Source: Acidobacteriaceae bacterium dw_441 (GTDB taxonomy: Bacteria; Acidobacteriota; Terriglobia; Terriglobales; Acidobacteriaceae). Taken from it: a stretch of DNA of 64,000 nt. Position numbers and translations under genes: made by a program. How positions within the stretch are numbered: the first letter of the stretch is position 1; the number at the start of each line of letters is the position of its first letter. The stretch lies in the NCBI GenBank assembly GCA_018449715.1, contig JAAVVA010000001.1, positions 1,116,001 through 1,180,000 of the forward strand, read 5' to 3'. Of the stretch, positions 8,608 to 35,635 are shown one piece after another. The notes below the pieces were generated by a model. The model did not search any database. It worked only from the letters and a program-made list of their open reading frames with translations, and was not told the origin of the DNA.

Positions 8608-8665
8608 CTGCACAGCTACGGGGATTCAATGACTTGCGAGAAAAGTCTGCACGGAATCTGCACAG
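8608..8665 (+). promoter_or_regulatory. Putative integrase arm-type sites, left end
   Basis: Three direct copies of an 8-bp motif: ctgcacag at 8608-8615, ctgcacgg at 8647-8654 and ctgcacag at 8658-8665. They lie between the putative attL core and the integrase start. The same motif recurs at the right end. Binding by the integrase is inferred. Confidence 0.45.
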
Positions 8666-8680
8666 AACCGGGAGGCGGAC

Positions 8681-10108: not shown

Positions 10109-10306
10109 CCCTGAATCTCCCGAAGCCGTTTTGTGCCGGAGCCGTGGCGGAGGCTGGCGCAGGGAGTTCGAGATTCCGATTCTCAGACGGATATTCGTCC
10201 TGATTTGCCGCAGCCCCGCCGGGGCGTTCTTAGCGGCAATTTTCGCGCACGTGCCGCCGCTGGCGGCTGTCTTCGTGCGCTTTGTCAGTTCCTGGCGGAT
10301 TCTTAC

Positions 10307-18956: not shown

Positions 18957-19337
18957 TCACAAACTGCCAGTGCCCTTGGACGATCCTCTGTCGGAATCGC
19001 CCATCTCGGAGGTTTCCCCTCTCTCGTTGTTTATGAGCCAAGGGGCTGGTCCCACGCTTGCCTCAGTCATCTCGTCCACGCGTTTGTAGAACTGATGAAT
19101 CTCCATGACGCCGAAACCCAAAGCCTGAACCACTTGCATTTGAAGGCGCATTGAATAGTTCGTTGTTAGCTGGTTATCCTCAAACTTTCGGAGCCAGGCA
19201 ACGGAAATTCCTGTCTCCTTTGAAAAGTCCTCAAGACTCCAGCCCTTTTCGGTACGAAGCTGGCGAACTAGGACACCGCAACAACGGTGGTATTCCTCCC
19301 TGTAGCGCCGCATCGCGGGATCGCTCCGTGGCTTCAT
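18957..19337 (-). CDS. XRE-family helix-turn-helix regulator, 126 aa
   Basis: N-terminal Cro/C1-type HTH at about residues 25-70 (LRTEKGWSLEDFSKETGISV with the recognition helix following), then a helical segment and an acidic tail. It is probably a DNA-binding repressor. It is the last gene of four coupled by ATGA overlaps (20852 to 18957). The wording KFEDNQLTTNYS after the HTH is typical of phage-repressor-like regulators. The target is presumably the operator at 20870-20890 or element genes nearby. Confidence 0.8.
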   Translation of the reverse strand: MKPRSDPAMRRYREEYHRCCGVLVRQLRTEKGWSLEDFSKETGISVAWLRKFEDNQLTTNYSMRLQMQVVQALGFGVMEIHQFYKRVDEMTEASVGPAPWLINNERGETSEMGDSDRGSSKGTGSL

Positions 19338-19678
19338 TTCCTAGACCTCTTCCCAGGCTTTCGCTGTTTCGGTGGTTGCTGAATCTGGTCGTATTGGGGA
19401 TAGCACTCTGGATGATCCGGTAAGAACATCTGTCCGCTTTCGGCAATGGGGTCGTCTTCGATGGAGACAAAGTGCGACACCCTTGCTGTCGGCAGGGAAA
19501 AAGACTCGATAGAGATGGACCACTCGGTGCGATCAGCAAACACCACGGTCACATAGACTATGCTGCGCTCCGCTTGAGAAAACCTTATGTGATCGACCTT
19601 CTTTCCCTTCACGCTGTAATCGAAGAGAGTGCCGTGCTTATGCTCTAGGCGAATCGTCTTCACCCGTGCTTTGCTCAT
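19334..19678 (-). CDS. Hypothetical protein in regulatory operon, 114 aa
   Basis: No recognised family. The middle reads as a small beta-rich domain (VDHIRFSQAERSIVYVTVVF), and the C-terminus is basic (PPKQRKPGKRSRK). It overlaps both neighbours by ATGA and so is translated with two HTH proteins. A role as an accessory or toxin/antitoxin-like partner of the regulators is possible but nothing in the sequence shows it. Confidence 0.65.
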   Translation of the reverse strand: MSKARVKTIRLEHKHGTLFDYSVKGKKVDHIRFSQAERSIVYVTVVFADRTEWSISIESFSLPTARVSHFVSIEDDPIAESGQMFLPDHPECYPQYDQIQQPPKQRKPGKRSRK

Positions 19679-20094
19679 GATTGTTCCCTCTCTCCGTTGG
19701 CTTCGTTCTCCAGAAGCGCTTCATCGGGAATATCCGATAGCTCTTCAGCCCGGTGCGCAAATTCCGCAAAAGAGAGATTGAAACCGATGCTGAGGCAGTA
19801 GAGAAAATAAAAGTCGGGATTAGGGTCTTTTCCAGCTTCGAGATCACGCACGAATTCAAGCGGCACCTGGCTACGCTTTGCCAGCTCTTCCTGCGTCAGA
19901 CCCTGCTCGTTCCGCAAAATGATAGAAAGAGCGGCATGAGCAGCAACAGCGCGTGTGCCCCGCTCTTGCCTCTCAACTTCGGGAATGGCGTTGATGCCCT
20001 CCGCCACCTCTGCCTGCGAAAAACCACGTTCTACGCGCAAAGCACTCAGAGCTGCCCCTATGGCTTGGTTGAACTCCTCACGGCTGATCCTCAT
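19675..20094 (-). CDS. HTH regulator, possible double HTH, 139 aa
   Basis: Two helix-turn-helix-like segments are visible: LRVERGFSQAEVAEGINAI near residue 22 and LRNEQGLTQEELAKRSQV near residue 60, the second the stronger XRE match with a following recognition helix (EFVRDLEAGKDPNP). The frame extends to 20136, but the ATG at 20094 overlaps the stop of the upstream gene (ATGA) and starts the domain, so I prefer it. Predicted transcriptional regulator of the element. Confidence 0.78.
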   Translation of the reverse strand: MRISREEFNQAIGAALSALRVERGFSQAEVAEGINAIPEVERQERGTRAVAAHAALSIILRNEQGLTQEELAKRSQVPLEFVRDLEAGKDPNPDFYFLYCLSIGFNLSFAEFAHRAEELSDIPDEALLENEANGEREQS

Positions 20095-20852
20095 ATTCCC
20101 TCGGTTTCCAGCTCGGTGAACTGTCGTTCCGCACAAAACTTCAATCCAACGTAGAGGTTCTTCACCAGCTTGGCGTCATTCTTGAACGGCACCGACCTGT
20201 CACCAATCAGGTCAATACCTGCTTTCCTGGCCCATGCGTAGGCCGCCGAGACCATCAACTGCCTCGCGCGCTCTCCGCTGATGCCGTGCATGGCTCCGAT
20301 GGTCCTTTGCGATTCGCCGTCATGAACGAACTGCACGAGCATCCGGTAAGCCCGCGCGAACTGCTGCCTTCCCTCCGGCGTAGACTTAGGGATGCTGTGG
20401 GAACCAAAACTGAGGCGCGGTGCTTTACGAGGGAGTATGTCTGCATACTTCTCACGGATGATGGTCATAGGAGAGGGGTCAGGGGGAACTCGATTGGCTG
20501 GAAGCCGCGCAATCCGAGAACGTTGCCGCCAGTGGCAGTACGCTCGTTGCCTGATCCACTCCACAGCGTCTTTGTCAGACAGGCGTGGCGGCACTCGCAG
20601 GCCACACGCAACAGCCCATTGTTCGGCCAGAATTCGCGGACAAATGCTGAGGGCTTTGGCAAGCTGATAGAAGTCGCGCTCCATCAAATGAACCTTGCCA
20701 GCAACATATCGAGCGAGATAGCGTTCCGTTACGTCTCCCAGTTTCTTGCTTAGCTGTTCGTGGGAAATGTCGCCACGCAATAGTTCAATCTGCGTGAGCA
20801 GATGAAGGCTGAAATCGCCTCGGATACGCGGAGGATGTTGAGAGCCTCGCAT
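20091..20852 (-). CDS. Putative DNA-binding regulator, 253 aa
   Basis: First gene of the four-gene operon. N-terminal region has a HTH-like stretch (DISHEQLSKKLGDVTERYLARYVAGK); near the C-terminus, GESQRTIGAMHGISGERARQLM resembles the sigma-factor region-4 type HTH. No catalytic motif. The frame is open to 20888 but I start at the ATG at 20852, because the upstream part overlaps the palindromic operator at 20870-20890. It may be a master regulator of the IME; alternative roles cannot be excluded. Confidence 0.7.
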   Translation of the reverse strand: MRGSQHPPRIRGDFSLHLLTQIELLRGDISHEQLSKKLGDVTERYLARYVAGKVHLMERDFYQLAKALSICPRILAEQWAVACGLRVPPRLSDKDAVEWIRQRAYCHWRQRSRIARLPANRVPPDPSPMTIIREKYADILPRKAPRLSFGSHSIPKSTPEGRQQFARAYRMLVQFVHDGESQRTIGAMHGISGERARQLMVSAAYAWARKAGIDLIGDRSVPFKNDAKLVKNLYVGLKFCAERQFTELETEGI

Positions 20853-20869
20853 GTCTAGAATAATCGCAT

Positions 20870-20890
20870 AGTTGGTTATGATAATCAACT
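20870..20890. promoter_or_regulatory. 21-bp near-palindromic operator in divergent promoter
   Basis: Halves agttg-g-ttat and ataa-t-caact pair around a central base with a single mismatched pair out of ten. It lies between the divergent genes starting at 20852 (minus) and 20953 (plus), in an AT-rich stretch. It is a natural site for one of the adjoining XRE proteins. Confidence 0.55.
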
Positions 20891-20952: not shown

Positions 20953-21198
20953 TTGATTATCACGGGAAGACAATTACGGGCTGCACGCGCTCTGCTTGGC
21001 ATGGAGCAGATTGAACTGGCAAAGCGCTCGCGCGTGGCGGTAGGAACCATCCGAAGGATGGAGTCGTTTGATGAAGAAGTTGGTGCGCGCACGTCAACGC
21101 TCTCTCAAGTACAGAAGGCATTGGAGAAGGCTGGAGTCGAGTTCCTAAACGACGGACAACCGGGTGTACGGTTGAAACGCTCTTCCGGGAAGGTGTAG
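20953..21198 (+). CDS. Small XRE regulator, 81 aa, TTG start
   Basis: Compact Cro/C1-type HTH (RQLRAARALLGMEQIELAKRS, residues 6-26, with recognition helix RVAVGTIRRME) and little else. The TTG at 20953-20955 is the likely start, as no ATG precedes the domain. It is divergent from the regulatory operon and lies 50 bp upstream of hsdM, so it may act as the control (C) protein of the type I operon, delaying restriction after transfer. That is inference from position and size; it is similar in length to known C proteins. Confidence 0.78.
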   Translation: MIITGRQLRAARALLGMEQIELAKRSRVAVGTIRRMESFDEEVGARTSTLSQVQKALEKAGVEFLNDGQPGVRLKRSSGKV

Positions 21199-21248: not shown

Positions 21249-22982
21249 ATGAATCTTTCCTCTTTCATTTGGGCCGTGGCGGACTTGCTGCGTGGCAAGT
21301 ACAAGCCCCACGAATACGGCCAAGTGATTCTGCCATTTACGGTTCTGCGTCGTATGGACTGCGTTCTTGAGTCTACGAAGAAGGCCGTACTTAAGGAAGC
21401 GGCGAAGCGCGAGTTCTCTGCTGCCAGCGTCAATCCGTTTCTGACCCGTGCTTCAGGTGCCACGTTCTACAACACCTCGCCAATGGATTTAAAGGCCATC
21501 ATCGGCGACCAGGACAATATCGCCGCCAATCTAGCGGCCTACCTGCACAGTTTTTCGCCTAACGTCAAAGACATCTTCGCCCGTTTCAAGCTGGAAGCGC
21601 AGATCGACCGGCTCGCCAACGCCGACCTACTCTACCTCGTCACCGAGAAGTTCAGCAAGATCGACCTGCACCCCGACAAGGTCAGCAACGCGGACATGGG
21701 CACTATCTTCGAGGAATTGATCCGCAAGTTTGCCGAACTGTCCAATGAGACCGCTGGCGAGCACTTCACGCCGCGCGAGGTCATCCGGCTCATGGTCAAC
21801 CTTATCTTTGCAGAGGATGACGACGTTCTTTCCAAACCGGGTGTCGTTAGGACTATTTACGACCCGACAGCAGGTACGGGGGGAATGCTTTCGGTGGCAG
21901 GGGAATGGGTGCATGAGCACAACCCGAAGGCACGGCTCACCGTATCCGGCCAGGAGCTGAATGACGAGTCCTACGCAATCTGCAAAGCGGACATGCTCAT
22001 TAAGGGGCAGGATGTGGCGAATATCAAACCGGGCGATACGCTCGCCAACGACGGCCATGCGCATCAGGTGTTCGACTACATGCTTTCTAATCCGCCGTTC
22101 GGTGTTGAGTGGAAGCAGTCCGAGAAGGCCGTCCGCAAGGAGTATGAGGAGCAGGGTTTCAACGGACGCTTCGGACCGGGGTTGCCTCGCATCTCCGATG
22201 GCTCGCTGCTCTTCATGCTGCATTTGGTGAAGAAAATGCGCCCGCTCGCCGATGGTGGGGCACGGTTCTGTATCGTCCAGAATGGTTCGCCGCTGTTTAC
22301 GGGTGGCGCTGGTTCGGGAGAGAGCAATATCCGGCAGTATCTCTTGGAGAGTGATCTAGTAGAGGCCATCGTCGCGTTGCCAACGGAGATGTTCTACAAC
22401 ACTGGCATCTCGACATATCTGTGGGTTGTAACAAACCATAAGCTTCCTCACCGCAAGGGCAAGCTGCAGTTGATCGACGCCTCCGGCTTCTGGCAGCGGA
22501 TGCGAAAGAGCTTAGGGGACAAGCGCAAAGAGCTTAGCCCGGAGCACATCGACGAGATCACGCGCATCTTCTGCCAGTTCAAGGAAGTTCAGCGCGATGG
22601 GGCTCCCATATCGCTCATCTTCCCGAATGAGAGCTTCGGTTACCGGACGATTACGGTCGAGCGCCCCTTGCGCGATGCTAAGGGCAAGGTCGTCTTCGGC
22701 ACCAAGGGCAAGATGAAGGGGAAGCCGATGCCCGATGCCGACCTACGCGATACCGAGAATGTGCCGCTCAGCGAGGATGTGGAGGTCTACTTCGAGCGCG
22801 AGGTGTTGCCTCATGCGCCGGACGCTTGGATTGACCATGAAAAGACGAAGGTGGGGTATGAAATCCCGTTCAACCGGCATTTCTATGTCTTCAAACCGCC
22901 ACGGGAGCTTGCTGAGATCGACGCCGACCTCAAGGTCGTCACCGACCGTATCCTGACGATGATTGCGGGGTTGAGTGCATGA
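21249..22982 (+). CDS. hsdM: Type I restriction-modification methyltransferase subunit
   Basis: N6-adenine DNA methyltransferase, 577 aa. An N-terminal HsdM_N helical domain is followed by the SAM-binding motif DPTAGTGGM (205-213) and the catalytic NPPF (281-284), the standard order of gamma-type MTases. It forms the M2S complex with HsdS and, with HsdR, a restriction enzyme. It is the first gene of an operon with overlapping stops and starts; its TGA overlaps the next ATG (22979-22982). Confidence 0.95.
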   Translation: MNLSSFIWAVADLLRGKYKPHEYGQVILPFTVLRRMDCVLESTKKAVLKEAAKREFSAASVNPFLTRASGATFYNTSPMDLKAIIGDQDNIAANLAAYLHSFSPNVKDIFARFKLEAQIDRLANADLLYLVTEKFSKIDLHPDKVSNADMGTIFEELIRKFAELSNETAGEHFTPREVIRLMVNLIFAEDDDVLSKPGVVRTIYDPTAGTGGMLSVAGEWVHEHNPKARLTVSGQELNDESYAICKADMLIKGQDVANIKPGDTLANDGHAHQVFDYMLSNPPFGVEWKQSEKAVRKEYEEQGFNGRFGPGLPRISDGSLLFMLHLVKKMRPLADGGARFCIVQNGSPLFTGGAGSGESNIRQYLLESDLVEAIVALPTEMFYNTGISTYLWVVTNHKLPHRKGKLQLIDASGFWQRMRKSLGDKRKELSPEHIDEITRIFCQFKEVQRDGAPISLIFPNESFGYRTITVERPLRDAKGKVVFGTKGKMKGKPMPDADLRDTENVPLSEDVEVYFEREVLPHAPDAWIDHEKTKVGYEIPFNRHFYVFKPPRELAEIDADLKVVTDRILTMIAGLSA

Positions 22983-24001
22983 GCACCAAACTCGTGTTGA
23001 AACACTCTGAGTTCTCGGAAGTGCTCGCCATCATTCGGACTGGCCGCGCCAAAGCATATGAGGCCGTCAATGTAGCTTTGATTGAGACCTACTGGGCAGT
23101 TGGTGCACATCTGTCCCACAAGGTAGCGGAGGCAGGCTGGGGCAAAGGTGTCGTGAAGGAGTTGTCCGCTTGGCTTTTGGCGCAGGCTCCAGATTTAAAG
23201 GGCTTTTCTGCCTCTAACCTATGGCGAATGAAGCAGTTCTACGAACTGTATGCCGACAGCCCAAAACTCGCAACGCTGTTGCGAGTTTTGTCGTGGACCA
23301 AGCACCAGTTGCTGGTTCAGTGCAAATCCGCTGAAGAACGGGAGTTTTACTTGATAGCGGCGACTCGCGGCCACTGGTCTCACCGTGAGCTGGCGCGCCA
23401 GATTCAGAGTTCGGCCTTCGAGCGGACGATGCTCGCTGATCGAAAACTCGCAACACCGTCGCGAGTTTTGCCGCAGGACGCCACGGGCGTCTTCAAGGAC
23501 AGCTACCTGCTCGACTTTCTGGATCTACCGCAGCGCCATAGCGAGACGGATCTGCAAACATCGCTGCTGCGCAATCTCCGTCAGTTTTTGATGGAGTTGG
23601 GCGACGGCTTCGCTTTTGTCGGCGAGAAAGTGCGCGTCCAGGTGGGTAATCAGGACTTCGAGTTGGACCTGCTCTTCTACCATCGTGACCTGCAATGCCT
23701 CGTCGCGTTCGAGCTGAAGACAGGCCGATTCGAGCCAGAGCACATGGGCAAACTGGCGTTTTATCTGGAGGCTCTTGATCGCGACCGAAAGCGCCCGCAT
23801 GAGAACCCGAGCATTGGCGTTCTGCTTTGCCGCACGAAGGATGATGAGGTTGTGGAATACGCGATGAGCCGCCATCTCTCGCCCGCGCTCGTCGCGCAGT
23901 ACGAAACCCAGATGATTCCGAAGACTGTCCTCCAGCAGAAGCTCCACGAATGGAGCCAGATGCTCCAAGCTCCCGAATCGTCAGATGAGGACGAGCTATG
24001 A
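22979..24001 (+). CDS. DUF1016/PDDEXK nuclease-domain protein (YhcG-like)
   Basis: An N-terminal DUF1016 helical domain (residues 1-180, including ISW-like LSWTKHQLL and EREFYLIAAT) is followed by a C-terminal PDDEXK nuclease fold with the Asp of FELDLLFYH and the ExK of AFELKTGRF. It is inserted between hsdM and hsdS with ATGA overlaps on both sides, so it is made together with the restriction enzyme. Such genes recur in type I loci, but their function is not established. The coding DNA holds two copies of a 27-bp palindrome (23263-23289, 23443-23469). Confidence 0.88.
   Translation: MSTKLVLKHSEFSEVLAIIRTGRAKAYEAVNVALIETYWAVGAHLSHKVAEAGWGKGVVKELSAWLLAQAPDLKGFSASNLWRMKQFYELYADSPKLATLLRVLSWTKHQLLVQCKSAEEREFYLIAATRGHWSHRELARQIQSSAFERTMLADRKLATPSRVLPQDATGVFKDSYLLDFLDLPQRHSETDLQTSLLRNLRQFLMELGDGFAFVGEKVRVQVGNQDFELDLLFYHRDLQCLVAFELKTGRFEPEHMGKLAFYLEALDRDRKRPHENPSIGVLLCRTKDDEVVEYAMSRHLSPALVAQYETQMIPKTVLQQKLHEWSQMLQAPESSDEDEL
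23263..23289. repeat. 27-bp intragenic palindrome, copy 1
   Basis: Perfect 12-bp stem aaaactcgcaac (23263-23274) with complement at 23278-23289 around a 3-nt loop, inside the DUF1016 gene, encoding KLATLLRVL. A second copy lies exactly 180 bp downstream in the same frame. Confidence 0.65.
23443..23469. repeat. 27-bp intragenic palindrome, copy 2
   Basis: Same 12-bp left arm (23443-23454) and 3-nt loop; the right arm (23458-23469) differs by one base. It encodes KLATPSRVL, so the reading frame is the same as copy 1. Confidence 0.6.
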
Positions 24002-25998
24002 GCTTTCCCCATTACGAGCGGTACAAAGACAGTGGCATGGAATGGTTGGGTGAGGTGCCGGAGCACTGGCAGGTAAACCGTCTCAAGCAGATTGCAGACG
24101 TGTTTCCAAGCAATGTAGACAAGAAGGAGTATGCAGACGAAGTTCCGGTACGGCTCTGTAATTACACCGACGTTTATTACAACGATGTAATCACGGCAGA
24201 TATGGAATTGATGAAGGCGACAGCCTCGCAAGAACAGGTTGACAAATTTACCCTGCGATCTGGCGACACCATTCTGACCAAAGACTCCGAAACTGCCGAC
24301 GACATTGCCATATCAGCATATGTCCCCAATGATCTTCCGGGTGTTGTATGCGGATACCATCTTTCCATTGCTCGCCCCAAGCCTGACGCCGTTGGCGCGT
24401 TCATTAAAAGAGTATTCGACGCTGCCTATATAAGAGCACAGGCAGAGGTGGCAGCTAATGGGCTCACCAGGGTTGGGCTGTCGCAGTACGCTCTGGACAA
24501 TCTGCTAGTAGCGTATCCAAATCGGAATGAACAATCTCAGATAGCGCAATTCTTAGATCGAGAGACGTTGAAGATCGACGCGCTGATTGAGGAGCAACAA
24601 CGGCTGATCGAGTTTCTGAAAGAGAAGCGCCAGGCGGCCATATTCCACGCCGTAACGAAAGGCCTCAATTCAAATACTCAGATGGTGGATTCCGAGATCG
24701 GGTGGATCGGCCTAATCCCTTCGCACTGGAGAATCGTCCGCCTTCGTCTGCTTGCAGATGTTCGTGGCGGAGTCGCAAAAGGGCGTAACTTCGGCGAAGC
24801 TGAAACTGTTCAGGTGCCATACCTGCGAGTTGCAAATGTTCAAGCCGGGTATCTCGATTTGGGAGATGTAACGGAGATAGAGATTGAACCCCATGAACTT
24901 GAACGATACAGGCTATTACCTGGCGATGTCTTGATGAACGAGGGTGGGGACTTCGACAAGCTCGGGAGGGGCGCCATCTGGCGAGGACAGATTGAAGACT
25001 GCATCCATCAAAATCATGTCTTCTCCGTGAGGCTGCATGATGTCGAGCCGGAGTGGGTGACTCTGGTTAGTTCATCGGACTGCGGGCGCTTTTACTTCAT
25101 GACCCGATCTAAGCAAAGCACCAATCTTGCATCGATATCTTCTTCGAACCTACGCGAGTTACCAGTACCATTGCCACCAAAGAATGAGCGTAGAGCCATC
25201 ATCGAAAAGGTGACTGCACATAACAAAGCTGTAGATGCACTCATAGAAGATACCGCCCGTGCAATAGAACTCATGCAGGAACGCCGCAATGCTCTCATAT
25301 CCGCAGCCGTGACAGGCAAGATCGACGTTCGCGCTTCCATGGAAAAGCCAATAATGAGCGCGACGCAATACAGTTCTGGTTTCGCGCATCAGTTGCTCGC
25401 CGCGGAAATTCTTGACCGCTGCAATAGCCAGCGTATGGGCCGAATTAAGCTACAGAAGCTCATTCACCTTTGCGAATATCATGGCCAGGTGAGCGAGGTG
25501 CAAGGGGACTACAGCCGCAAAGCGGCAGGTCCGTTTGATGCGAAGGCCATGGCCGGTATCAGCAAAAACCTCAAAAAGCAGAAGTGGTTTGAAGAGGTCA
25601 AGGAAGGCGAACGCTATGTGTATCGACCCTTGGAAAAACGGGGCGAACACAAGAAGTATCTTGCCCATTGGCAGGCCGAGATGCCACGGATTGACGAAGT
25701 CCTCAGTTTGCTTGGGAACTTCAGAACCAGAGAATGCGAGATCGTTTCGACTCTCTATGCGGCATGGAACGACTTGCTGATCGATGGTGGACTAGCCGAT
25801 GATGCCACCATCTTGCATGAGGCTTCTAGCGCAGAACGTTGGCACAAGAGCAAAGAGCAGATAGCCCCGGAAAGATGGAAGAAGGCGCTGCAATGGATGA
25901 AGGACAAGGGATTGGTTCCGGTAGGCTATGGCAAGCACACACGACATACCGCCGTACAGATCGGAACCGCCCCTGAGGTAGCCCATGAGCCTGCATAA
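23998..25998 (+). CDS. hsdS: Type I specificity subunit with extra C-terminal domain
   Basis: Two target-recognition domains (about residues 1-185 and 230-400), each followed by a helical spacer (ALIEEQQRLIEFLKEKRQAA near 200; ALIEDTARAIELMQERRNAL near 415), the normal HsdS plan ending at about residue 445. It then continues for some 220 residues, giving 666 aa against a usual 400-450. This tail contains IKLQKLIHLCEYHG and AGPFDAKAM, reminiscent of the Panacea (SocA-like, DUF4065) domain. It overlaps hsdR by 14 bp. The tail could recruit a partner or act as an antitoxin-like module. Confidence 0.9.
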   Translation: MSFPHYERYKDSGMEWLGEVPEHWQVNRLKQIADVFPSNVDKKEYADEVPVRLCNYTDVYYNDVITADMELMKATASQEQVDKFTLRSGDTILTKDSETADDIAISAYVPNDLPGVVCGYHLSIARPKPDAVGAFIKRVFDAAYIRAQAEVAANGLTRVGLSQYALDNLLVAYPNRNEQSQIAQFLDRETLKIDALIEEQQRLIEFLKEKRQAAIFHAVTKGLNSNTQMVDSEIGWIGLIPSHWRIVRLRLLADVRGGVAKGRNFGEAETVQVPYLRVANVQAGYLDLGDVTEIEIEPHELERYRLLPGDVLMNEGGDFDKLGRGAIWRGQIEDCIHQNHVFSVRLHDVEPEWVTLVSSSDCGRFYFMTRSKQSTNLASISSSNLRELPVPLPPKNERRAIIEKVTAHNKAVDALIEDTARAIELMQERRNALISAAVTGKIDVRASMEKPIMSATQYSSGFAHQLLAAEILDRCNSQRMGRIKLQKLIHLCEYHGQVSEVQGDYSRKAAGPFDAKAMAGISKNLKKQKWFEEVKEGERYVYRPLEKRGEHKKYLAHWQAEMPRIDEVLSLLGNFRTRECEIVSTLYAAWNDLLIDGGLADDATILHEASSAERWHKSKEQIAPERWKKALQWMKDKGLVPVGYGKHTRHTAVQIGTAPEVAHEPA

Positions 25999-28900
25999 AG
26001 AGATTCACTTCGAGGTAGAGATCGCCGAGCACCTCGGGCAGCATGGTTGGGTATATGAAGAAGGCGTCTCAGCGCAGTACGACAGAGCGCGGGCGTTGTT
26101 TCCGGAGGATGTGATTGCGTGGGTGCAGGAGGCTCAACCGGAGGCTTGGCAGGCGCTCGCCAAAGGACACGGTCTTGCCGCCGATACACGACTACTCGAC
26201 CAACTCCGCCAGAATCTGGACACACGAGGAACCCTAGACGTACTGCGGAACGGTATCGAGCTATTCCCTGTAAAGAGCAAGATTGCCCTGGCGCAGTTTC
26301 GTCCTGCCTCAGGCATCAATGCCGCGATCATGACCAGGTACACGGCCAACCGTCTGCGCGTCGTCCGGCAGGTTCGTTACTCCGAAGGCAATGAGAACTG
26401 CCTTGACCTCGTCTTCTTTTTGAATGGCCTGCCCGTCGCCACGGTAGAACTGAAATCGGACTTTACCCAGAGCGTCAAGGACGCGGTAGACCAATACCGG
26501 TTCGACCGGCATCCGCAGCCAAAGGGCCAGAAGGCCGAGTCACTGTTGAGCTTTCCCGGTGGTGCGTTGGTTCACTTCGCCGTCAGTAACTCCGAGGCTC
26601 AGATGACGACCAGGCTGGCAGGGCCAGCGACTCGCTTTCTACCATTCAACAAAGGAGACGACGGCGGGGCTGGCAATCCGCCATCTTCGTCAGGCCATCG
26701 AACTAGTTATCTATGGGAGGAAGTCTGGGAGCGTGAGAGCTTTCTCGACATCCTGGGGCGTTACCTCGTCACCGAGAAGGACGACAAGAAGAAGCTGACC
26801 CGGTATCTGTTCCCGCGCTACCACCAGCTTGACGCGACTCGGAAACTGCTGAAAGCCGTAAAGACGGAAGGTGCGGGCGGCAAGTACCTGATCCAGCATT
26901 CGGCAGGTTCGGGTAAAACAAACTCGATTGCGTGGACGGCACACTTCTTCGCAGACCTGCATGATAGCGAGCACAAAAAAGTCTTCGACTCGGTCATTGT
27001 CGTCAGCGACCGCAATGTGATTGACCAGCAATTGCAGGATGCCATCTTTGACTTCCAGCGCACCACCGGCGTCGTGACGAGCATCAAGGGCGTCAGCGGC
27101 AGCAAGAGCAAGGAACTTGCCGAGGCGCTCTCGGGTGATAAGAAGATCGTCGTTTGCACCATCCAGACCTTCCCGTTCGCCCTGGAGAAGGTCCGTGAGC
27201 TTGCAGCTTCGGAAGGCAAGCGCTTCGCCGTAATCGCGGATGAGGCGCATAGTTCGCAGACAGGCGAAGCAGCCGCAAAGTTGAAGCAAGTGCTCAGTGC
27301 CGAAGAGTGGCAGGAGATCGAGGACGGTGGCGAAGTTGGCTTCGACGACGTGCTACGGGCGCAGATGACCGCCCGTACAGCCGACAAAGGTATCACTTAC
27401 GTTGCGTTCACGGCGACACCCAAGGCGAAGACGCTGGAGTTGTTTGGACGAAGGCCGGAGCCAAATCAGCCAGCCGAGCCGACGAACTTACCCGAGGCAT
27501 TCCATGTGTACAGCATGAGGCAGGCAATCGAGGAGGGCTTCATCCTTGATGTGCTGGAAAATTACACGACCTATAAGCTTGCTTTCAAGCTGGCGCATGA
27601 CGGCAAGGAGTACGACGAGACCGAGGTGGAACGCTCCACTGCGATGAAGGGCATCATGCGATGGGTGCGCTTGCATCCGTACAACATCTCGCAGAAGGTA
27701 CAAGTAGTCGTCGAACACTACCTGGAAAATGTGCAACCGCTGCTTGCAGGTCACGCCAAGGCGATGGTCGTAGTCGGCAGCAGGTTGGAGGCAGTACGCT
27801 GGCAACTCGCGATGCAGAAGTACATTCAGTCGCGGGGCTATCGCTTGAGTGCGTTGGTCGCGTTCTCCGGCGAGGTGATCGATAAGGCTTCTGGCGAAGA
27901 CCCGTTTACCGAGAACAGCAAGGTGTTGAACCCAAACCTTCGGGGGAGAGACATCCGGGAAGCCTTCAAGACGGACGAATACCAAATCCTGCTTGTAGCC
28001 AACAAGTTCCAAACTGGCTTCGACCAGCCGCTGTTATGTGGGATGTATGTAGATAAACGGCTCGGCGGTATTCAAGCAGTACAGACGCTATCGCGTTTGA
28101 ACCGCTCCTACTCCGGCGCATTCGGTATCAAAGACACGACATTCGTCTTGGATTTTGTGAATGAGGCCGAAGATGTATTGGAGGCCTTCCGCACCTACTA
28201 CACGACCGCAACGCTGGAGGATGTGACCGATCCGAACCTCGTTTATAACCTTCGCGCCAAGTTGGATGCGGCGGGACACTATGACGAGTTTGAAGTTGAC
28301 CGGGTTGCGACTGTCGAGTTGAACCCAGACTCGAAACAGGGCGATCTTGTTCGCGCTCTGGAGCCGGTCGCCGATAGACTGGTACGCCAGTTCAAGGCAG
28401 CGCATGACCGGTGGAAGGCTGCGAAGACTGCATCGAATGATGGTGCAGTCGAAGACGCTCACGCCGAGATGGAAACGCTGATGCTCTTCAAGCGTGACAT
28501 GGGCAGCTTTGGTCATGCCTATACTTTCCTGTCACAAATCTTCGACTATGGGAATACCGGACTGGAGAAGCGAGCTATCTTCTACAAGCGGCTGATGCCG
28601 CTGTTGGAGTTTGGTCGCGAGCGCGACGGTGTCGATCTTTCGCAGGTGGTGCTGACGCACCATATTCTGCGTGATCGTGGCAACCGGACATTGCCGCTTG
28701 GCGAAGGAGACTCGCCTACGCTAAAGCCACTGACAGACGCCGGCTCCGGCTCGGTGCAGGAGAAGGAAAAGGCGCGTTTGGGGGAGATTATCGCCAAGGT
28801 CAATGACCTTTTCGGAGCGGACACTACCGAGGGTGACAAACTCGTTTATGTGAACGATGTCATCAAGGGCAAGTTGATGGAGTCCGACACTCTGAGGCAA

Positions 28901-29119
28901 CAAGCGGTGAGCAACAGCAAAGAACAGTTCGCTAATTCACCCGATCTGAATCACGAACTTATCAATGCCATTATGGATGCTTCTTCGGCGTTGTCTTCTC
29001 TCAGTAAACAGGCACTTGAGTCTGAGCATATACGGAGCGGTCTCAAGGAGGTCCTTCTAGGACCAGCACAGCTTTATGAGGCACTGAGGGCACGAGATTC
29101 GGCAGTCGGTATTGAGTAA
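25985..29119 (+). CDS. hsdR: Type I restriction endonuclease subunit
   Basis: Motor and nuclease subunit, 1,044 aa. The PDDEXK nuclease is at the N-terminus: Asp141, Glu155 and Lys157 (ATVELKSDF). Helicase motifs follow: Walker A SAGSGKT (about 305-311), DEAH at 419-422, TATPKAK, and the motif VI region with QTLSRLNRS. A C-terminal helical domain contacts the M2S core. All key residues appear intact, so an active restriction system is likely. Its stop lies 91 bp from the convergent TIGR04141 gene. Confidence 0.95.
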   Translation: MSLHKEIHFEVEIAEHLGQHGWVYEEGVSAQYDRARALFPEDVIAWVQEAQPEAWQALAKGHGLAADTRLLDQLRQNLDTRGTLDVLRNGIELFPVKSKIALAQFRPASGINAAIMTRYTANRLRVVRQVRYSEGNENCLDLVFFLNGLPVATVELKSDFTQSVKDAVDQYRFDRHPQPKGQKAESLLSFPGGALVHFAVSNSEAQMTTRLAGPATRFLPFNKGDDGGAGNPPSSSGHRTSYLWEEVWERESFLDILGRYLVTEKDDKKKLTRYLFPRYHQLDATRKLLKAVKTEGAGGKYLIQHSAGSGKTNSIAWTAHFFADLHDSEHKKVFDSVIVVSDRNVIDQQLQDAIFDFQRTTGVVTSIKGVSGSKSKELAEALSGDKKIVVCTIQTFPFALEKVRELAASEGKRFAVIADEAHSSQTGEAAAKLKQVLSAEEWQEIEDGGEVGFDDVLRAQMTARTADKGITYVAFTATPKAKTLELFGRRPEPNQPAEPTNLPEAFHVYSMRQAIEEGFILDVLENYTTYKLAFKLAHDGKEYDETEVERSTAMKGIMRWVRLHPYNISQKVQVVVEHYLENVQPLLAGHAKAMVVVGSRLEAVRWQLAMQKYIQSRGYRLSALVAFSGEVIDKASGEDPFTENSKVLNPNLRGRDIREAFKTDEYQILLVANKFQTGFDQPLLCGMYVDKRLGGIQAVQTLSRLNRSYSGAFGIKDTTFVLDFVNEAEDVLEAFRTYYTTATLEDVTDPNLVYNLRAKLDAAGHYDEFEVDRVATVELNPDSKQGDLVRALEPVADRLVRQFKAAHDRWKAAKTASNDGAVEDAHAEMETLMLFKRDMGSFGHAYTFLSQIFDYGNTGLEKRAIFYKRLMPLLEFGRERDGVDLSQVVLTHHILRDRGNRTLPLGEGDSPTLKPLTDAGSGSVQEKEKARLGEIIAKVNDLFGADTTEGDKLVYVNDVIKGKLMESDTLRQQAVSNSKEQFANSPDLNHELINAIMDASSALSSLSKQALESEHIRSGLKEVLLGPAQLYEALRARDSAVGIE

Positions 29120-29210
29120 TCTCGCCCCTACAATCAGCCAATATCTATGGTCCATGAGGTAGGTGCAAGCTCTGTATTTGACTGGGCCCACTCCGGATGC
29201 TGCTCCAAGC

Positions 29211-30788
29211 CTAAACGTCAATATAAGAGACTGTGTGCCCTTGCTCCGCCAGCTCTTTGCAAGTCCTAGAAAGTCCGCACTTGGCGAAGAACGGGAGTTC
29301 ATCGGCCCTTTTGCCTAGAGATACCATACAGAAATTCCAGTCGCCATTTCTGGGGCGTGTCTGAAGCCAAGTAGTATCAAACTGGGGATAGTGAGTCGCG
29401 AATAGTTTGATAAGCTTCTGCCTGTAAGCACCGTCAGCGCTGAACAGCAACTGTGCCGTTCGCCGAACCTGCTCTGTCAGGTGGCTCATTCCACTTGACT
29501 TCGAAACGATTTTCGCGAACATCAGGGTTTTTGTGTTGGGGTCCAGCATGTCGCAGAATTCAAGCTGAGATCGGCCACCGCCGAAGAAAATGTTCTTGGC
29601 ATCACAATTTAGAAATCCATGATTCTCTGAGCAAACTTTGTTGTACTCTCCTTCGGAGTGGGCTCCGTTCCATGCAGTTAGCGCGAAGGGCGGAAGCGAT
29701 ACCCTGGCGATGGAGTCAGTGACATTCTGGACGAAGTCTATTGAAACTTCATACCAAGCGCCGGAAGACAAAACGTAAACCCGCGTCCCGTCGGAATATT
29801 CATAGCCGAAACAATCAAAGACAGAGACATCTCGCGGTGTCCCACCGGAGTCATCGAATGCGTGGACGCGGGACTGTTTTGCTACCTCTAAGGATGGGAC
29901 GAGGCCACTTCGCGAGAGGCTATTGATCCAGCCCTCCATCGTTAGGTAGGGAGATGATGCAGGATTCTTACCGAGCCTTCCGTAGACATACGAATCCGCG
30001 ATAAACATCTCTCCTTTCCTCTGCGAAGGAGTGAACATCGCAATCTTGCTTCTTGCATTAGCATCGCTTAGATCGATTCCGAGCTGTTCCTCCAATAGAT
30101 AAATGGTCTCTTCATCCTTCAATGGACTGATGTTGTCCATCTCAGGCCAGTCTTTTTTATAATCAGCGCTTCCGAACCGGTCTAAAGCGATATCGAAGAC
30201 GTTCACCAAGGCCGAAATGGGAAGGGTGACTTTCAGGCTCGTACTACCTCTGATGGTCTTTCCTAGTGAAGGACTGATACTTGGAACACCTTCCAACACA
30301 GCGACCAAGTCACGGTCGAAGTCGACCCCAAATTCCTCGACAGAGGATGCGCGTGGCGCTCGTTCACTGGCCAGATGCCATTTTGCGAATACCTGCTCAG
30401 CTCGGATCTCGACGAGTTCTTTTCTTGGAATCACATTTAGGGCGACCCGAAGTCCAAAATCCCGCTCAAGCCAGCTATCATCAAGCTTCTGCCAAGCGTG
30501 ACCGAAAGTCACAACAAAGGTTCTTCCCGAGTGACGAAGAACAAGCAATCCTCCGGGAGCCTTTGCTTCCATATCCGTTCCAATTGGCTGTGCAAGCAAT
30601 GATCCGACAGGTGCTACCCAGACCGGAGCTGCGTCATTAGCCGCAGGAAGGGGTATGAAAAACCCGTCAAGTGGCTCAGATACGGGAATCGCCAACTCGC
30701 GAAGGGGGCCGATCAACTCATCCTCAAAAGCACCAAGTTTCTTGTCTTTCAGAAGAAAGATTGTGAGGCCTATCTTCCGGTCAGACAT
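29211..30788 (-). CDS. TIGR04141/DUF6119 family sporadically distributed protein
   Basis: 525 aa with the family N-terminus (IGLTIFLLKD) and the GRTFVVTFGHAWQKL segment near 108-122, a region shared by this patchily distributed family. Function is unknown; members are often found next to restriction-modification or other defence genes. It converges on hsdR. Neither signal peptide nor membrane helix is present. I recognise the family from these segments but cannot assign a reaction. Confidence 0.75.
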   Translation of the reverse strand: MSDRKIGLTIFLLKDKKLGAFEDELIGPLRELAIPVSEPLDGFFIPLPAANDAAPVWVAPVGSLLAQPIGTDMEAKAPGGLLVLRHSGRTFVVTFGHAWQKLDDSWLERDFGLRVALNVIPRKELVEIRAEQVFAKWHLASERAPRASSVEEFGVDFDRDLVAVLEGVPSISPSLGKTIRGSTSLKVTLPISALVNVFDIALDRFGSADYKKDWPEMDNISPLKDEETIYLLEEQLGIDLSDANARSKIAMFTPSQRKGEMFIADSYVYGRLGKNPASSPYLTMEGWINSLSRSGLVPSLEVAKQSRVHAFDDSGGTPRDVSVFDCFGYEYSDGTRVYVLSSGAWYEVSIDFVQNVTDSIARVSLPPFALTAWNGAHSEGEYNKVCSENHGFLNCDAKNIFFGGGRSQLEFCDMLDPNTKTLMFAKIVSKSSGMSHLTEQVRRTAQLLFSADGAYRQKLIKLFATHYPQFDTTWLQTRPRNGDWNFCMVSLGKRADELPFFAKCGLSRTCKELAEQGHTVSYIDV

Positions 30789-31276
30789 CGCTGATAATCT
30801 CCTTTGGCCAAACAGCCTTGAGGCCTGCAGCTATCAAGTTGCATGAAAGTGATTGTGGAAACTGCGTACCACTGTACATGAGTGACATGGGCATACCCGC
30901 TGGTGCATGGACCTCAGATCATTGACTTGACGACTCGGTTCGAGATGAGATGGTGGCGGGAAAGGTAAGTCTCCGCAAAGCCACTGCAAGGGCGTTACGC
31001 TGCTTCGCAGCGGGTGTAAGGCTGACACGTCACCCCCAAATGGGATGCTGCCGGTAAACCGACCCTTTGGTTTGGCTCGTAATCGTTAACGCGCTTTGAA
31101 TCAGACGTTTGACGATTTACAACTCCGACACGGCGGCGATGCGTTTACGCGCGTAAACGCGCGAGCAGTCCAGAGCGTGCGGCGTGTAAACGCGCTGATA
31201 GGCAAGGGCTTTCAGCAATCGAGTGCTTGACGGCCAAAATCGCAGGGTGCAAGCTGGTTTTGAGGCGGGCTTTCCT
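30789..31276. other. Candidate oriT/operator region upstream of mobilization genes
   Basis: 488 bp without a convincing gene. It contains a perfect 20-bp palindrome at 31141-31160 (arm gcgtttacgc), a further gtaaacgcg copy at 31176-31184 and an imperfect inverted repeat aatcgt/acgatt (31081-31086 and 31112-31117). This position, directly before an RHH protein and a coupling protein, suits an origin of transfer and/or an autoregulatory operator. The nick site cannot be identified from sequence alone. Confidence 0.5.
31141..31160. promoter_or_regulatory. Perfect 20-bp palindrome upstream of RHH gene
   Basis: Two arms gcgtttacgc and gcgtaaacgc meet without a loop; the half-site gtaaacgcg recurs at 31176-31184. 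RHH proteins typically bind such repeated half-sites. Confidence 0.5.
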
Positions 31277-31702
31277 ATGAGCACTCCCCGCATCCCGGCT
31301 CCGTTGCAGTCTCCAGCCTCGCCGAGTGGCGAAGCGCGTCCGGTTCTTCGTGCCAAAACCATTGCAACCAGGGTTACGCCGGAGGAGCTAGCCGAGGTGG
31401 AAACCGCCGCCGAAGGCTCGGGGAAAACCTTGGCCGAATGGCTGCGCGAGTTGGCTCTGAAAGCCGCGCGGGAGCGTCCGGCAGACCCCACGGAGTTGAT
31501 GCTGGCCGAGGTTTCGGCGCTGCGATACATGCTCCTGAATCTCTTCCACGCGACGGCCCAGGCGAACGCCGAAGGCAAGCATCTGCTACCCGATTCCGTG
31601 ATCAAAATCCGTGACCAGGCCAACCTGCGGAAGCTTACCGACGCCCGGAAACTTCTCGCTGAGTTTCTGTCCCAGGAGGGACCGGACGGGGGCAAGCAGT
31701 GA
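31277..31702 (+). CDS. RHH mobilization accessory protein (MobC/TrwA-like)
   Basis: 141 aa. A ribbon-helix-helix segment is visible at residues about 26-60 (AKTIATRVTPEELAEVETAA followed by a second helix SGKTLAEWLRELALKA). Such proteins bind oriT, recruit the relaxase and repress their own operon. The frame extends to 31223; I use the ATG at 31277, directly before the N-terminal linker. It overlaps the next gene (31699-31702), so it is coupled to the coupling protein, as in trwA-trwB systems. Confidence 0.78.
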   Translation: MSTPRIPAPLQSPASPSGEARPVLRAKTIATRVTPEELAEVETAAEGSGKTLAEWLRELALKAARERPADPTELMLAEVSALRYMLLNLFHATAQANAEGKHLLPDSVIKIRDQANLRKLTDARKLLAEFLSQEGPDGGKQ

Positions 31703-33681
31703 GCCGCCCCATGCGTTTTCCAAGCCGGACGGGACGGCTGTTCTGGTTCCTTTTCTGGCTTGCGGTCGGGCCGCTGGTGCTCATCTTCCCGGCTTCGGCT
31801 TGGCTCGCGTGGACCCTTGCACCGCTCCAAAAGGTCTACCTTACGACCTATGCCGCCAGCTCCGTAGGGGCCGGGATGCCGCACAGCGAATTGACGATCC
31901 GATGGGTGATGAAGACCGCGCCCAGGCGGAAGCCGATACCCGCTTCCGCCGAGGATGTAGTCTCCGGCCCGGACCCGAAACTGCCCGTCATACTCTCGCC
32001 CAAAGCCATCGCGGAGGGTTGGCGTGGAGTGGCCTATAGCGCCCCGGAGAAAGTGCCCGCAAATGCGCTTGCCAAGGGATTGCAGGAGTATGTCTACGAT
32101 GGCGTGAGCGTATGGTGGTTGTTTGGCAGGCCCATGCTGAACAGCCTTGCCGTGCTGATGCTGCTTTATGTGTTCCGGCTTTGGATCAAGCAGGGTTTTG
32201 GGCAGCGGCGAGAGCAGGAGGAACGCCACGGACGCAGAACCAAAGGCCCGGAGCTGGCATCGGTTTTCCGGTGGCGCAGCACAAAGACGGACGGCATCCG
32301 TTTCCGTCTGCGCTTCGAGAATCGCCTTTTGCAGTGGCTTCCCTTTGGCCCAACCTACTGCATCCCGAAGCGTCTTGAAGCCAGCCACATTCTGATGATG
32401 GGCGACACCGGCGCGGGTAAGTCGAACGCCATCCGGCAGCTACTTCGCCAGGTGCGGGAGCGTGGGGAGAGCGCCATCATCTACGACCCGGCAATGGACT
32501 TTGTGAGCGAATTTTACTCGCCCGCGCGGGGCGATTTGATTCTCAATCCGCTGGACCAGCGTTGTCCGTATTGGAGTCTAGGAAACGAGATGGACCGCGA
32601 CGAAACGGCTACGACGATCGCCGCCGCGTTCCTGCCGGAAAAGGAGTACGAGAAAGAGTTTTTTACCGATGGGCCGCGCCGGATACTTGCCCATCTACTC
32701 AAGCGGCAGCCGCAGCCCAGGGACATTTTGAGCATGATGGCCGAGCCGTCGCGGATCGAGTTTGCGGTGAAAGGAACGCCGCTGGCCGCGCTGCTCGATG
32801 CGGGAGCGCCCGCACAGCGGGCGGGTGTGCTGGCGAGCTTAAACATGGTAGCCGACAGCCTGGAATTGTTGCCGGAGTGGGAGCATACGAGGCCGACGTT
32901 TGCAACGGCGGAGTGGTACACCGCGCGTAAGCGTTGGGTGTTTCTGACTTCCACTCCTGCCTACCGCGCGAAGATTCTGCCGCTTCACTCCGTGTGGCTC
33001 GATTTATTCATCCTCCGCATAATGGGCTACTGCGAAGACCAGACGGCGAAGCCGGTATGGTTCGTGCTGGACGAGCTGGCAAGCCTCAACAAGCTCCCAC
33101 AGCTCCACACTGCCGTCACGGAAAACCGCAAGTATGGGAACCCTGTTGTGTTGGGCTTTCAGGGACGCAGCCAGCTTGAAAAACGATACGGCCAGGATGC
33201 CGAGGCCATGCTTTCGCAGCCCGCAACCAAGCTGTTTTTCAAGACCACCGAGCCACGTGCGGCCAAGTGGATTTCCGATGCCATTGGAGAGATCGAGGTC
33301 GAACGGTTGAAGGAATCGCGCAGCATGAGGCTGTTCGGCAGCAGGAAATCGTATGCGATGGAGATTGCGACCAAGCCGCTTGTCATGGCTTCGGAAATCT
33401 CCGGCTTGGAGCCATTGCACGGCTTCATCAAGCAGGAAAACCACGTTTTGCCGGTTTACTTCCAGTTCGCAAAGAAGCACGGCAGACAACCGGAGTTCAT
33501 CGAACGTAAGTTGCCGGAGATTGCGCCCAGGTCGTCATCGCCGACGCAGGTAGTTCGCACCGAGCAATCCAAATCATCGGCGGTCCAAACCACGCTTCCA
33601 CTTTTCGATGCGTCCGCCGACCAGCCCACCGACAAACCCAAAGAGGCGTTTGTGTGGGATGAGTCCAAGGGGATTGAGTGA
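31699..33681 (+). CDS. Type IV coupling protein (TraD/VirD4/TrwB-like)
   Basis: Membrane-anchored hexameric ATPase that docks the relaxase-DNA complex at a type IV secretion channel. Two N-terminal membrane helices (about residues 11-37 and 145-161) precede the ATPase: Walker A GDTGAGKS at 235-242 and Walker B FVLDELASL near 453. A gln-rich RecA-like motif follows at NPVVLGFQGRSQLE. Length (660 aa) fits. No mating-pore gene is in the element, so it probably uses a partner's channel. Confidence 0.9.
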   Translation: MSRPMRFPSRTGRLFWFLFWLAVGPLVLIFPASAWLAWTLAPLQKVYLTTYAASSVGAGMPHSELTIRWVMKTAPRRKPIPASAEDVVSGPDPKLPVILSPKAIAEGWRGVAYSAPEKVPANALAKGLQEYVYDGVSVWWLFGRPMLNSLAVLMLLYVFRLWIKQGFGQRREQEERHGRRTKGPELASVFRWRSTKTDGIRFRLRFENRLLQWLPFGPTYCIPKRLEASHILMMGDTGAGKSNAIRQLLRQVRERGESAIIYDPAMDFVSEFYSPARGDLILNPLDQRCPYWSLGNEMDRDETATTIAAAFLPEKEYEKEFFTDGPRRILAHLLKRQPQPRDILSMMAEPSRIEFAVKGTPLAALLDAGAPAQRAGVLASLNMVADSLELLPEWEHTRPTFATAEWYTARKRWVFLTSTPAYRAKILPLHSVWLDLFILRIMGYCEDQTAKPVWFVLDELASLNKLPQLHTAVTENRKYGNPVVLGFQGRSQLEKRYGQDAEAMLSQPATKLFFKTTEPRAAKWISDAIGEIEVERLKESRSMRLFGSRKSYAMEIATKPLVMASEISGLEPLHGFIKQENHVLPVYFQFAKKHGRQPEFIERKLPEIAPRSSSPTQVVRTEQSKSSAVQTTLPLFDASADQPTDKPKEAFVWDESKGIE

Positions 33682-33733
33682 GGCAAAGCGCGTTCATCAG
33701 AAGCTAGGCAAATGCTCGCGGATTTGAATGGCG

Positions 33734-35023
33734 CTATTGGAAGATGGAGAGATCAATTTCATCAGCCATCTTCTCGTAGCCCGCATCGTTAGGGTGTAAA
33801 TGATCGTCAGATGCCAAATTCGGAATCAGTCTGCCTGGGTGTCTAGGGTCGCGCATTACGACATCAAAATCGATCACCCCGTCGAACCCTTTGCTAGTCC
33901 TGATCCAATCATTGACGGCTTGCCGCGTTCGTTCTTTCGCCTCGGTATGGTAGTTGGCGATAGTGGCTCCCTCGGTTGGCATGATCGTGCAGCCAATTAT
34001 GCGGATTCCGCGCGCGTGCGACAACTGAATAAGTTTCTTATATCCAGCGACAATCTCGTCCGTTGTCGGCGCATCGACCGCTGGTGCAAGAAGCAGATCA
34101 CCAAGCCGCGCTCCTGGAAATCCGATGTCGTTTGTTCCTTCCAGCAGAACGATTTCAGAAACGCCGGGCACTCCCAGAGCATCTCGTTCAAAACGGGCCA
34201 CGCCGGAGACACCCAGACTTTTGAAGGGGCCGTCATTTAAGAGACGGTTTCCTGCCACGCCTTCATTGACCACGGCAAATGCCAGCTTGTCATCTGTTCG
34301 CTGCAAACGGCGAAAAAGATCACTCGGCCAGGTACGGTCTGCTTCAGGAGTGCTTTTGTCGCCATCGACAATGGAGTCACCGAACGCGACAATCACTCTG
34401 CGTCCGGGCCGACTGGCAACCAGTACCCTGCTCAAGAAGACCAAGCTGTCGGAAGTCTTCTCACTCTTCACAACAAAGTCCCGCGTGTGATCGCCCTTTT
34501 GCGTGATGACGGACTTTTTCAGCGCCAATGAGTGCCAGGTGATTGACTTGATCTGCTTTGGCACATACACGCTGATGGCGAGTTCTGAGCCGTTCGATAC
34601 AGATAGAGCGACGGGGTCGCTTATGAGGTCCGCCCCAGCAGGAATTGTGATTGTGTCGCTTCCAGCGAATGTCACCTTGCGCAGTGAACTCGGAACTACA
34701 TCCGTATTGCTCCGAGCGATTCCAACACTCACACCGCCCAGCAGAAGTGGCGAGTTTCCATATTCATTAGAAAACTGAAGGCGAATCTGCGAACCGCCGA
34801 GGCTGATTCGGACGCGTTCCCTCACCGTCTGTCCCCTAAGGTTCAGCAGCTCCTCATCCGGGTCTGGATCGGCGGCCTCGGGACTGGAGGCCCAAGTGGC
34901 GATCCACTGCGGCTGCTGACTGAGGATAGGGAGCGGCAGCATCCACAGGCACGCTGCGAAGGCTGCTTTGAGCCAGACGTGCGCACGGCACGAGAGAAGC
35001 CATTCGCGTCTTCCGGTCCTCAT
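33734..35023 (-). CDS. Exported SGNH/GDSL hydrolase
   Basis: 429 aa with a hydrophobic leader. The SGNH catalytic residues are Ser217 in VAFGDSIVDGD (block I), Gly/Asn in EGTNDIGF (block III) and Asp407-x-x-His410 in SDDHLHPNDAGY (block V). Members are esterases or lipases on lipids, polysaccharide acyl groups or xylan acetyls. It overlaps the NIPSNAP gene (35020-35023) and lies inverted inside the mobilization region; its base composition is visibly lower in GC than the genes on both sides, suggesting separate arrival. Confidence 0.88.
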   Translation of the reverse strand: MRTGRREWLLSCRAHVWLKAAFAACLWMLPLPILSQQPQWIATWASSPEAADPDPDEELLNLRGQTVRERVRISLGGSQIRLQFSNEYGNSPLLLGGVSVGIARSNTDVVPSSLRKVTFAGSDTITIPAGADLISDPVALSVSNGSELAISVYVPKQIKSITWHSLALKKSVITQKGDHTRDFVVKSEKTSDSLVFLSRVLVASRPGRRVIVAFGDSIVDGDKSTPEADRTWPSDLFRRLQRTDDKLAFAVVNEGVAGNRLLNDGPFKSLGVSGVARFERDALGVPGVSEIVLLEGTNDIGFPGARLGDLLLAPAVDAPTTDEIVAGYKKLIQLSHARGIRIIGCTIMPTEGATIANYHTEAKERTRQAVNDWIRTSKGFDGVIDFDVVMRDPRHPGRLIPNLASDDHLHPNDAGYEKMADEIDLSIFQ

Positions 35024-35502: not shown

Positions 35503-35635
35503 GTGATCTCCTCTCGAACTGCTTCCATAGCATTGAGTCTAGCGGTAATTAGTGTTGATTATGTGGCCACAAGTTTACAGGGCGAGCCAGACTCCCGTGA
35601 AGTCGCTTATGTTTACTCAGGCATAGAATCTTCCT

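Follow-up and report, generated by a model that had tools for sequence, protein, structure and literature searches.

The stretch analyzed here (the window, 64,000 nucleotides) spans positions 1,116,001 to 1,180,000 of contig JAAVVA010000001.1 from Acidobacteriaceae bacterium dw_441. It contains a type I restriction-modification (R-M) operon whose specificity subunit, HsdS, ends in an additional domain, hereafter the tail. Profile comparisons and structure models establish this domain as a homologue of the C-terminal domain of DarG, and it recurs on HsdS beside several classes of HsdM in many phyla.

Gene order and families of the operon

Four genes, hsdM, a DUF1016 gene, hsdS, and hsdR, follow each other on the forward strand (Table 1). 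Their overlaps of 4, 4, and 14 bp, with codons and frames rechecked, agree with the initial annotation of this DNA, which had put them at 4 to 14 bp. A TIGR04141/DUF6119 gene converges on hsdR, as had also been noted, and is separated from it by 91 bp. The family matches bear out the gene names of the initial annotation. The type I gene set is complete, comprising HsdM, an HsdS with two target recognition domains, and an HsdR with nuclease and translocase domains. The translations contain TAGTGG and NPPF motifs in HsdM, ELK, GSGKT, and DEAH motifs in HsdR, and a D...ELK motif in the DUF1016 protein, which can be compared with the E-D-E(I/L/V)K motif given in the available part of PMC1189080. 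With its long open frames, strong family matches, and intact motifs, the operon is no chance finding.

Judged by its sequence, the operon has the core of an ordinary type I R-M system. It shares hsdM, hsdS with two target recognition domains, and hsdR with EcoKI and EcoR124I and differs from them by the extra domain of HsdS and by the DUF1016 gene between hsdM and hsdS. The earlier description of a type I operon with components beyond the normal enzyme is thus in line with the family matches and with the recurrent tail. The DUF1016 protein matches the PADLOC candidate PDC-S02 (DUF1016/YhcG), with no difference found; PDC-S02 itself is a candidate family only. TIGR04141 and DUF6119 score 339.8 and 298.8 bits, respectively, against curated cut-offs of 35 and 27. 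Models of the methylation-associated defence system (MADS) stay below their cut-offs (MAD2, 46.8 versus 720 bits; MAD5, 29.7 versus 400 bits). The window lies on a 2.08-Mb contig of a 4.92-Mb genome with a stated completeness of 99.99%, in which the Methylase_S match of this operon is the only one found.

A small helix-turn-helix (HTH) open reading frame (ORF), missing from the initial annotation, ends 50 bp upstream of hsdM. By analogy with RptR of enteropathogenic Escherichia coli (EPEC), it is a possible regulator of the operon.

Table 1. Features of the operon and its immediate neighbors (positions within the window)
Feature	Position	Strand	Length	Evidence
Small XRE-type HTH ORF, TTG start	20953..21198	+	81 aa	HTH_3, E 1e-4, 22.7 bits (cut-off 23, just missed)
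hsdM, type I N6-adenine methyltransferase	21249..22982	+	577 aa	HsdM_N, 1.9e-25; N6_Mtase, 2.4e-57; PADLOC MTase_I, 6e-266
DUF1016/YhcG-type PD-(D/E)XK nuclease gene	22979..24001	+	340 aa	DUF1016_N, 2.8e-41; YhcG_C, 3.8e-55; PDC-S02, 1.1e-123
hsdS, specificity subunit with C-terminal extra domain	23998..25998	+	666 aa	Methylase_S, 6.6e-12, two stretches
Linker between HsdS core and extra domain	25342..25365	+	residues 449-456	pLDDT <50 in HsdS model
DarG C-terminal-domain-like extra domain of HsdS (stretch modeled)	25363..25995	+		Fold and profile comparisons
hsdR, motor and nuclease subunit	25985..29119	+	1044 aa	HSDR_N, 1.4e-15; SWI2_SNF2, 1.5e-21; T1R_D3-like, 3.6e-10
TIGR04141/DUF6119 gene	29211..30788	-		TIGR04141, 2.3e-101; DUF6119, 9.9e-89

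The C-terminal domain of HsdS

EcoKI HsdS (464 aa) aligns with residues 92 to 461 of the window HsdS, so the tail lies beyond a full-length specificity subunit and the last ~210 residues are extra. The extension of about 220 residues reported earlier is therefore real, and it is a recurrent domain. In a model of the full-length protein (m43d09930e702), residues 24 to 439 match solved HsdS subunits with Z scores of up to 26.4. They are followed by a linker of low confidence (predicted local distance difference test, pLDDT; Table 1) and a well-folded domain at residues ~457 to 650. The predicted template modeling score (pTM) of this whole-HsdS AlphaFold model is 0.59, and the placement of the tail on the core is not fixed by it. 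Modeled alone with 41 relatives, the tail reaches a pLDDT of 93.3 and a pTM of 0.88.

Comparison of the tail model with the PDB retrieves the DarG C-terminal domain from the DarTG complex (7yk3_B) at Z 15.5, with 165 residues aligned and a root mean square deviation of 3.4 Å; the next row has Z 7.1. Foldseek likewise ranks 7yk3 first (E 1.8e-4, with the next entry at E 0.16), and the tail as it appears within the full-length model (residues 458 to 637) matches 7yk3 at Z 15.0.

The same relationship is seen at the sequence level. An alignment of 42 tails, including that of the window and excluding four short fragments (L047, L049, L051, and L056; such handles denote individual loci), was compared by hhalign with an alignment of ten DarG domains, giving 97.9% and E 3.5e-13 over 170 columns. 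Two of these DarG domains had been reached through the tail itself (L114 by the tail profile and L037 from a tail locus); without them, the eight plasmid DarG domains still give 97.1% and E 7e-11. Another DarG-type locus (L200), which contains a stop codon, was excluded. As controls, Panacea yields 3.4% and DUF6119 0.2%. When the DarG-domain profile is run against 4348 ORFs, the best 26 rows are all DarG or tail-bearing ORFs. In the reverse search of 6302 sequences, the tail profile ranks the window first and then 8 of the 10 DarG domains ahead of any other ORF (E 1.6e-11 up to 0.067), the remaining two being missed or lower ranked. The PADLOC DarG model also matches the window tail (E 3.4e-7, model positions 166 to 327 of 329). 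Residues constant between tail and DarG are Lys32/46, Gly-Pro 56-57/68-69, Glu126/141, Trp160/168, and Lys164/172; they are held in 42 of 42 tails and 10 of 10 DarG domains, except that the last Lys is found in 9 of 10 in DarG. Thus, the tail resembles the DarG C-terminal domain in fold over nearly the whole domain, in its invariant residues, and in profile match. It differs from it in being fused to HsdS, in being basic, and in lacking a macro domain: there is no Macro-domain match in the window HsdS, unlike the N terminus of DarG, and the DarG proteins of L037 and L048 have this domain.

Family databases give the domain no name. Pfam finds no family in more than 2 of the 42 tails (best E, 0.0023), and the whole HsdS is named only as HsdS by Pfam, NCBIfam, and PADLOC (for PADLOC, among the best 25 of 106 matches). 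The PADLOC type I specificity models PDLC03088 and PDLC03196 already include the tail stretch, unnamed. So does the methyltransferase model PDLC03039, which ends in the tail domain (positions 519 to 700); fusions of the tail to HsdM therefore seem to exist too. Searches with the single tail sequence reach one plasmid record and 5 of 396 Acidobacteriota genomes, with no PDB match, no confirmed locus in genome_contigs, and no phage record; the alignment-based search reached many more. The profile of tails gives chance-level rows only against solved sequences. An assignment to the Panacea/SocA domain, with an hhalign value of 3.4% (against a four-sequence Panacea profile) and a Pfam match in 1 of 42 tails at E 0.05, is doubtful and was set aside.

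The tail alignment was used in a pattern scan of one genome per species (84,980 species), which surely misses some loci. It found 45 loci. In 38 of them, an ORF with HsdS matches ends in the tail; three others are truncated at contig ends, and the remaining four (L038, L047, L052, and L056) show no HsdS fusion. The taxa include Acidobacteria, Planctomycetes, Proteobacteria, Bacteroidetes, Spirochaetes, Fibrobacter, Nitrospinota, and an archaeon. The closest tail in genome_contigs comes from an Acidobacteria metagenome-assembled genome (MAG). Across the 396 Acidobacteriota genomes, the tail profile gives four clear cases, the window among them, and four weaker ones; the two weaker matches that were read are a DarG (L114) and a lone domain (L112), and the wider regions L116 to L119 were left out of the reading. 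Within the 42 diverse tails, 13 residues are invariant.

The tail does not follow HsdM. A comparison of 21 HsdM proteins gives five groups with 22 to 31% identity between group representatives (local alignments). In L045, HsdM is 66% identical to that of the window and the tail 31%; in L017, the values are 29% and 42%. This suggests that tails have been exchanged between type I systems.

Some loci depart from the usual architecture. A Paracoccus contig (L052, 8845-12638) encodes a stand-alone tail domain of 231 aa immediately upstream of hsdR; neither hsdS nor hsdM was detected in the vicinity. A Tunicatimonas plasmid (L007, 7740-8546) encodes a stand-alone domain of 268 aa beside methyltransferase and helicase genes and a multiubiquitin-ThiF cluster. 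In Pseudorhodoferax (L056, 8605-9081), an ORF of 158 aa joins the start of HsdM to a piece of the tail and is perhaps the remnant of a deleted operon.

The type I core and the DUF1016 and TIGR04141 families are already known; new is the DarG-type domain as a part of HsdS. No description of such a domain on HsdS was found among the literature matches listed, which cover few subscription papers and do not prove its absence. With this assignment, an unnamed domain found repeatedly on HsdS across many phyla acquires an identity and a relationship to the toxin-binding part of DarG, whose system is known to insert into type I operons. The assignment also suggests a link between restriction and abortive defence.

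Possible functions of the tail

In type I systems, HsdM2S modifies DNA and HsdR2M2S cuts it. The reading that we prefer, with a probability of roughly 0.6, is a type I R-M operon in which HsdS bears a linker-borne homologue of the DarG C-terminal domain as a tethered docking or regulatory module, and in which the DUF1016 protein is an interchangeable accessory nuclease. HsdS would carry the extra domain on a flexible linker. Through a binding face that was probably inherited from a DarG-type domain, the tail might keep either a DNA-acting protein or the DNA itself in contact with the restriction complex. The DUF1016 nuclease would be co-expressed with the operon as an interchangeable accessory, much as RhuM, Abi, DarTG, and DUF6119 genes appear in related operons. 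Such loci could then be read with the HsdS tail as the conserved novelty and the neighboring nuclease as interchangeable. For the activity of the tail as such, protein docking is our tentative choice and DNA binding is possible; a decoy or antitoxin for a DarT-like or anti-restriction protein is unlikely, as is any other function.

Several results weigh against the docking module. DarT (PF14487, E ≤ 0.001) has no match in the host genome. Among 43 tail-bearing genomes searched, which represent 40 of the 45 loci plus three further genomes and mostly come without a completeness value, only 3 contain it. No viral structure matches the tail model at E ≤ 0.001. The tails are basic, with a mean isoelectric point (pI) of 8.4 and 2 of 42 below 6, compared to a mean of 6.9 and 3 of 10 below 6 for the ten DarG domains. 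Finally, winged-helix proteins match the first half of the tail at Z ~6, which would fit DNA binding too. Because the absence of DarT here, its rarity in tail-bearing genomes, and the basic charge disfavor an antitoxin role, a docking or regulatory module is what we infer, with DNA binding as its main rival.

In that rival, which is possible albeit doubtful, the tail would be a DNA-binding clamp, either tightening the hold of the complex on DNA or recognizing modified or single-stranded DNA close to the target. Its basic composition fits such a role, and the second-tier structural matches are mostly winged-helix regulators. However, the rows after 7yk3 align 73 to 108 of 211 residues at middling Z scores, whereas the protein-binding domain of DarG aligns over 165 residues at 15.5.

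A captured antitoxin domain that still neutralizes a DarT-like toxin from phages or neighboring elements is an unlikely alternative, despite the homology to the DarT-binding domain in fold and by hhalign. In the available part of PMC11481870, which refers to Deep 2023, the DarG C-terminal domain is described as occluding the DarT active site, mimicking single-stranded DNA. An acidic DNA mimic is not supported by the basic tails, whose charge differs from that model, and the DarT counts indicate that the tail does not in general serve as antitoxin to a resident DarT; that role is weakened accordingly. In favor of this reading, “Candidatus Syntrophoarchaeum” (L037, 1-5049) has darT, darG, and hsdR in a row downstream of the tailed hsdS end, and a Moraxellaceae MAG (L048, 7120-11283) has darT and darG directly after a tailed hsdS. 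DarTG is known inside type I operons from the accessible portions of PMC5179494 and PMC12255303. In the latter, DarTG2 lies between hsdS and hsdR of EPEC, and darTG2 is reported in 12 of 54 RptR-linked type I loci. As far as that text goes, the EPEC RRDM island shares with the window a type I operon with a DarG-type domain, a small upstream regulator, and extra genes inside the operon. It differs in that the domain resides in a separate DarG between hsdS and hsdR, whereas in the window it is in HsdS and no DarT is found. Together with L037 and L048, this arrangement suggests a route by which hsdS could have captured a DarG domain, or the other way round.

Further type I operons with a tail contain RhuM, Abi_2, Schlafen-AlbA_2, GmrSD_N, RES, KilA-N, or DarTG genes, with 8 of 51 intervening ORFs identified. 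The toxin PrrC of EcoprrI, encoded between hsdS and hsdR, is kept silent by the type I complex, and that operon resembles the window in having accessory genes inside it. By analogy, a DarG-type clamp on HsdS of many type I complexes might silence a toxic DNA-acting effector, and a phage inhibiting or destroying the complex would set this effector free; we regard this as improbable. If true, the restriction enzyme would not only provide first-line defence but also guard a suicide system, and its clients would be the various nuclease, Abi, and ADP-ribosyltransferase genes in such operons.

Equally unlikely as the captured antitoxin is a dedicated compound system of four genes, in which the DUF1016 nuclease would be loaded onto the restriction complex via the HsdS tail. 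The 4-bp overlaps on both sides of the DUF1016 gene speak for it, as does the presence of DUF1016 beside a tailed HsdS in 8 of 45 loci and in L057, in two gene orders; in L047, DUF1016 lies 2.5 kb from a tail fragment. The L057 contig, from a viral collection (4237-12580), has hsdM, DUF1016, tailed hsdS, and hsdR with the same 4- and 14-bp overlaps as the window. However, after clustering with the window included, the 8 of 45 loci shrink to 3 of 35 clusters at 90% identity (3 of 28 at 70%). This is similar to the HsdM background, in which DUF1016 lies within 6 kb, as judged by coordinates, of 9 of 115 HsdM_N rows from 160 of the 396 genomes. DUF1016 matches are present in 67 of the 396 Acidobacteriota genomes. 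From 113 rows, 79 were read, in 77 regions including the window, some of them cut by contig ends; an hsd gene is found in 25 of these neighborhoods and none is seen in 52, the hsd models having been seeded from tail loci, so that distant hsd genes may be missed. Outside the window, 0 of 76 contain a tail. Thus, DUF1016 is neither hsd-specific nor visibly tied to the tail, and a special DUF1016-tail link was rejected on these counts. Some type I operons do have it as an accessory, often placed between hsdM and hsdS, and it looks like modular, interchangeable cargo. The most similar plasmid piece, from Granulicella, is 77% identical over 62% of the protein, and the DUF1016 protein has no match among solved sequences.

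Least probable is a reading in which the tail belongs to the normal make-up of some HsdS families and has no separate function: although three PADLOC models already include the stretch, its invariant residues, its occurrence beside HsdM groups at most 31% identical between representatives, and the separate domains of L007 and L052, detected without an HsdS, argue otherwise.

The DUF6119 gene and the surrounding element

DUF6119 is found in 11 of the 396 Acidobacteriota genomes, and 5 of the 11 neighborhoods contain hsd genes; in L069, it is flanked by hsdR and hsdS and shares their strand. Five of 23 plasmid records were inspected. In three of them (Mameliella, Actibacterium, and Paracoccus albus), DUF6119 is located between hsdS and hsdR with overlaps of 1 to 4 bp, and in the other two it is not between these genes. 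DUF6119 is thus truly, though not exclusively, hsd associated. Its profile gives chance-level rows only against solved structures, and neither the tail nor DUF1016 is found in 15 other DUF6119 loci.

The initial annotation had proposed a compound system of three linked extras. This is not supported: tail, DUF1016, and DUF6119 occur all together in the window only, among the loci read, and DUF1016 is at about background frequency. The co-occurrence survey that it had suggested bears out the link of DUF6119 to hsd genes and not the link of DUF1016 to the tail. Its view that extra genes which are dispensable for restriction and occur mostly without hsd genes would be unrelated cargo largely applies to DUF1016 (no hsd gene seen in 52 of 77 neighborhoods); DUF6119 is better linked.

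To judge from the genes around it, the operon looks like part of a conjugative-type element. Upstream, a gene for an ArdC N-terminal domain and a zincin-like peptidase (12445-13674, forward strand), of the anti-restriction type, apparently belongs to the same element as the restriction operon. It is followed by four overlapping tyrosine recombinase genes in tandem (13694-18228, reverse strand). Divergent from hsdM are three HTH-type genes, two of which weakly match sigma-70 region 4, together with a fourth small ORF (18957-20888, reverse strand). Beyond the DUF6119 gene, the region 31223-38410 contains conjugative-element genes encoding a NikA-like protein, a TrwB-type coupling protein, and a TrwC relaxase-helicase.

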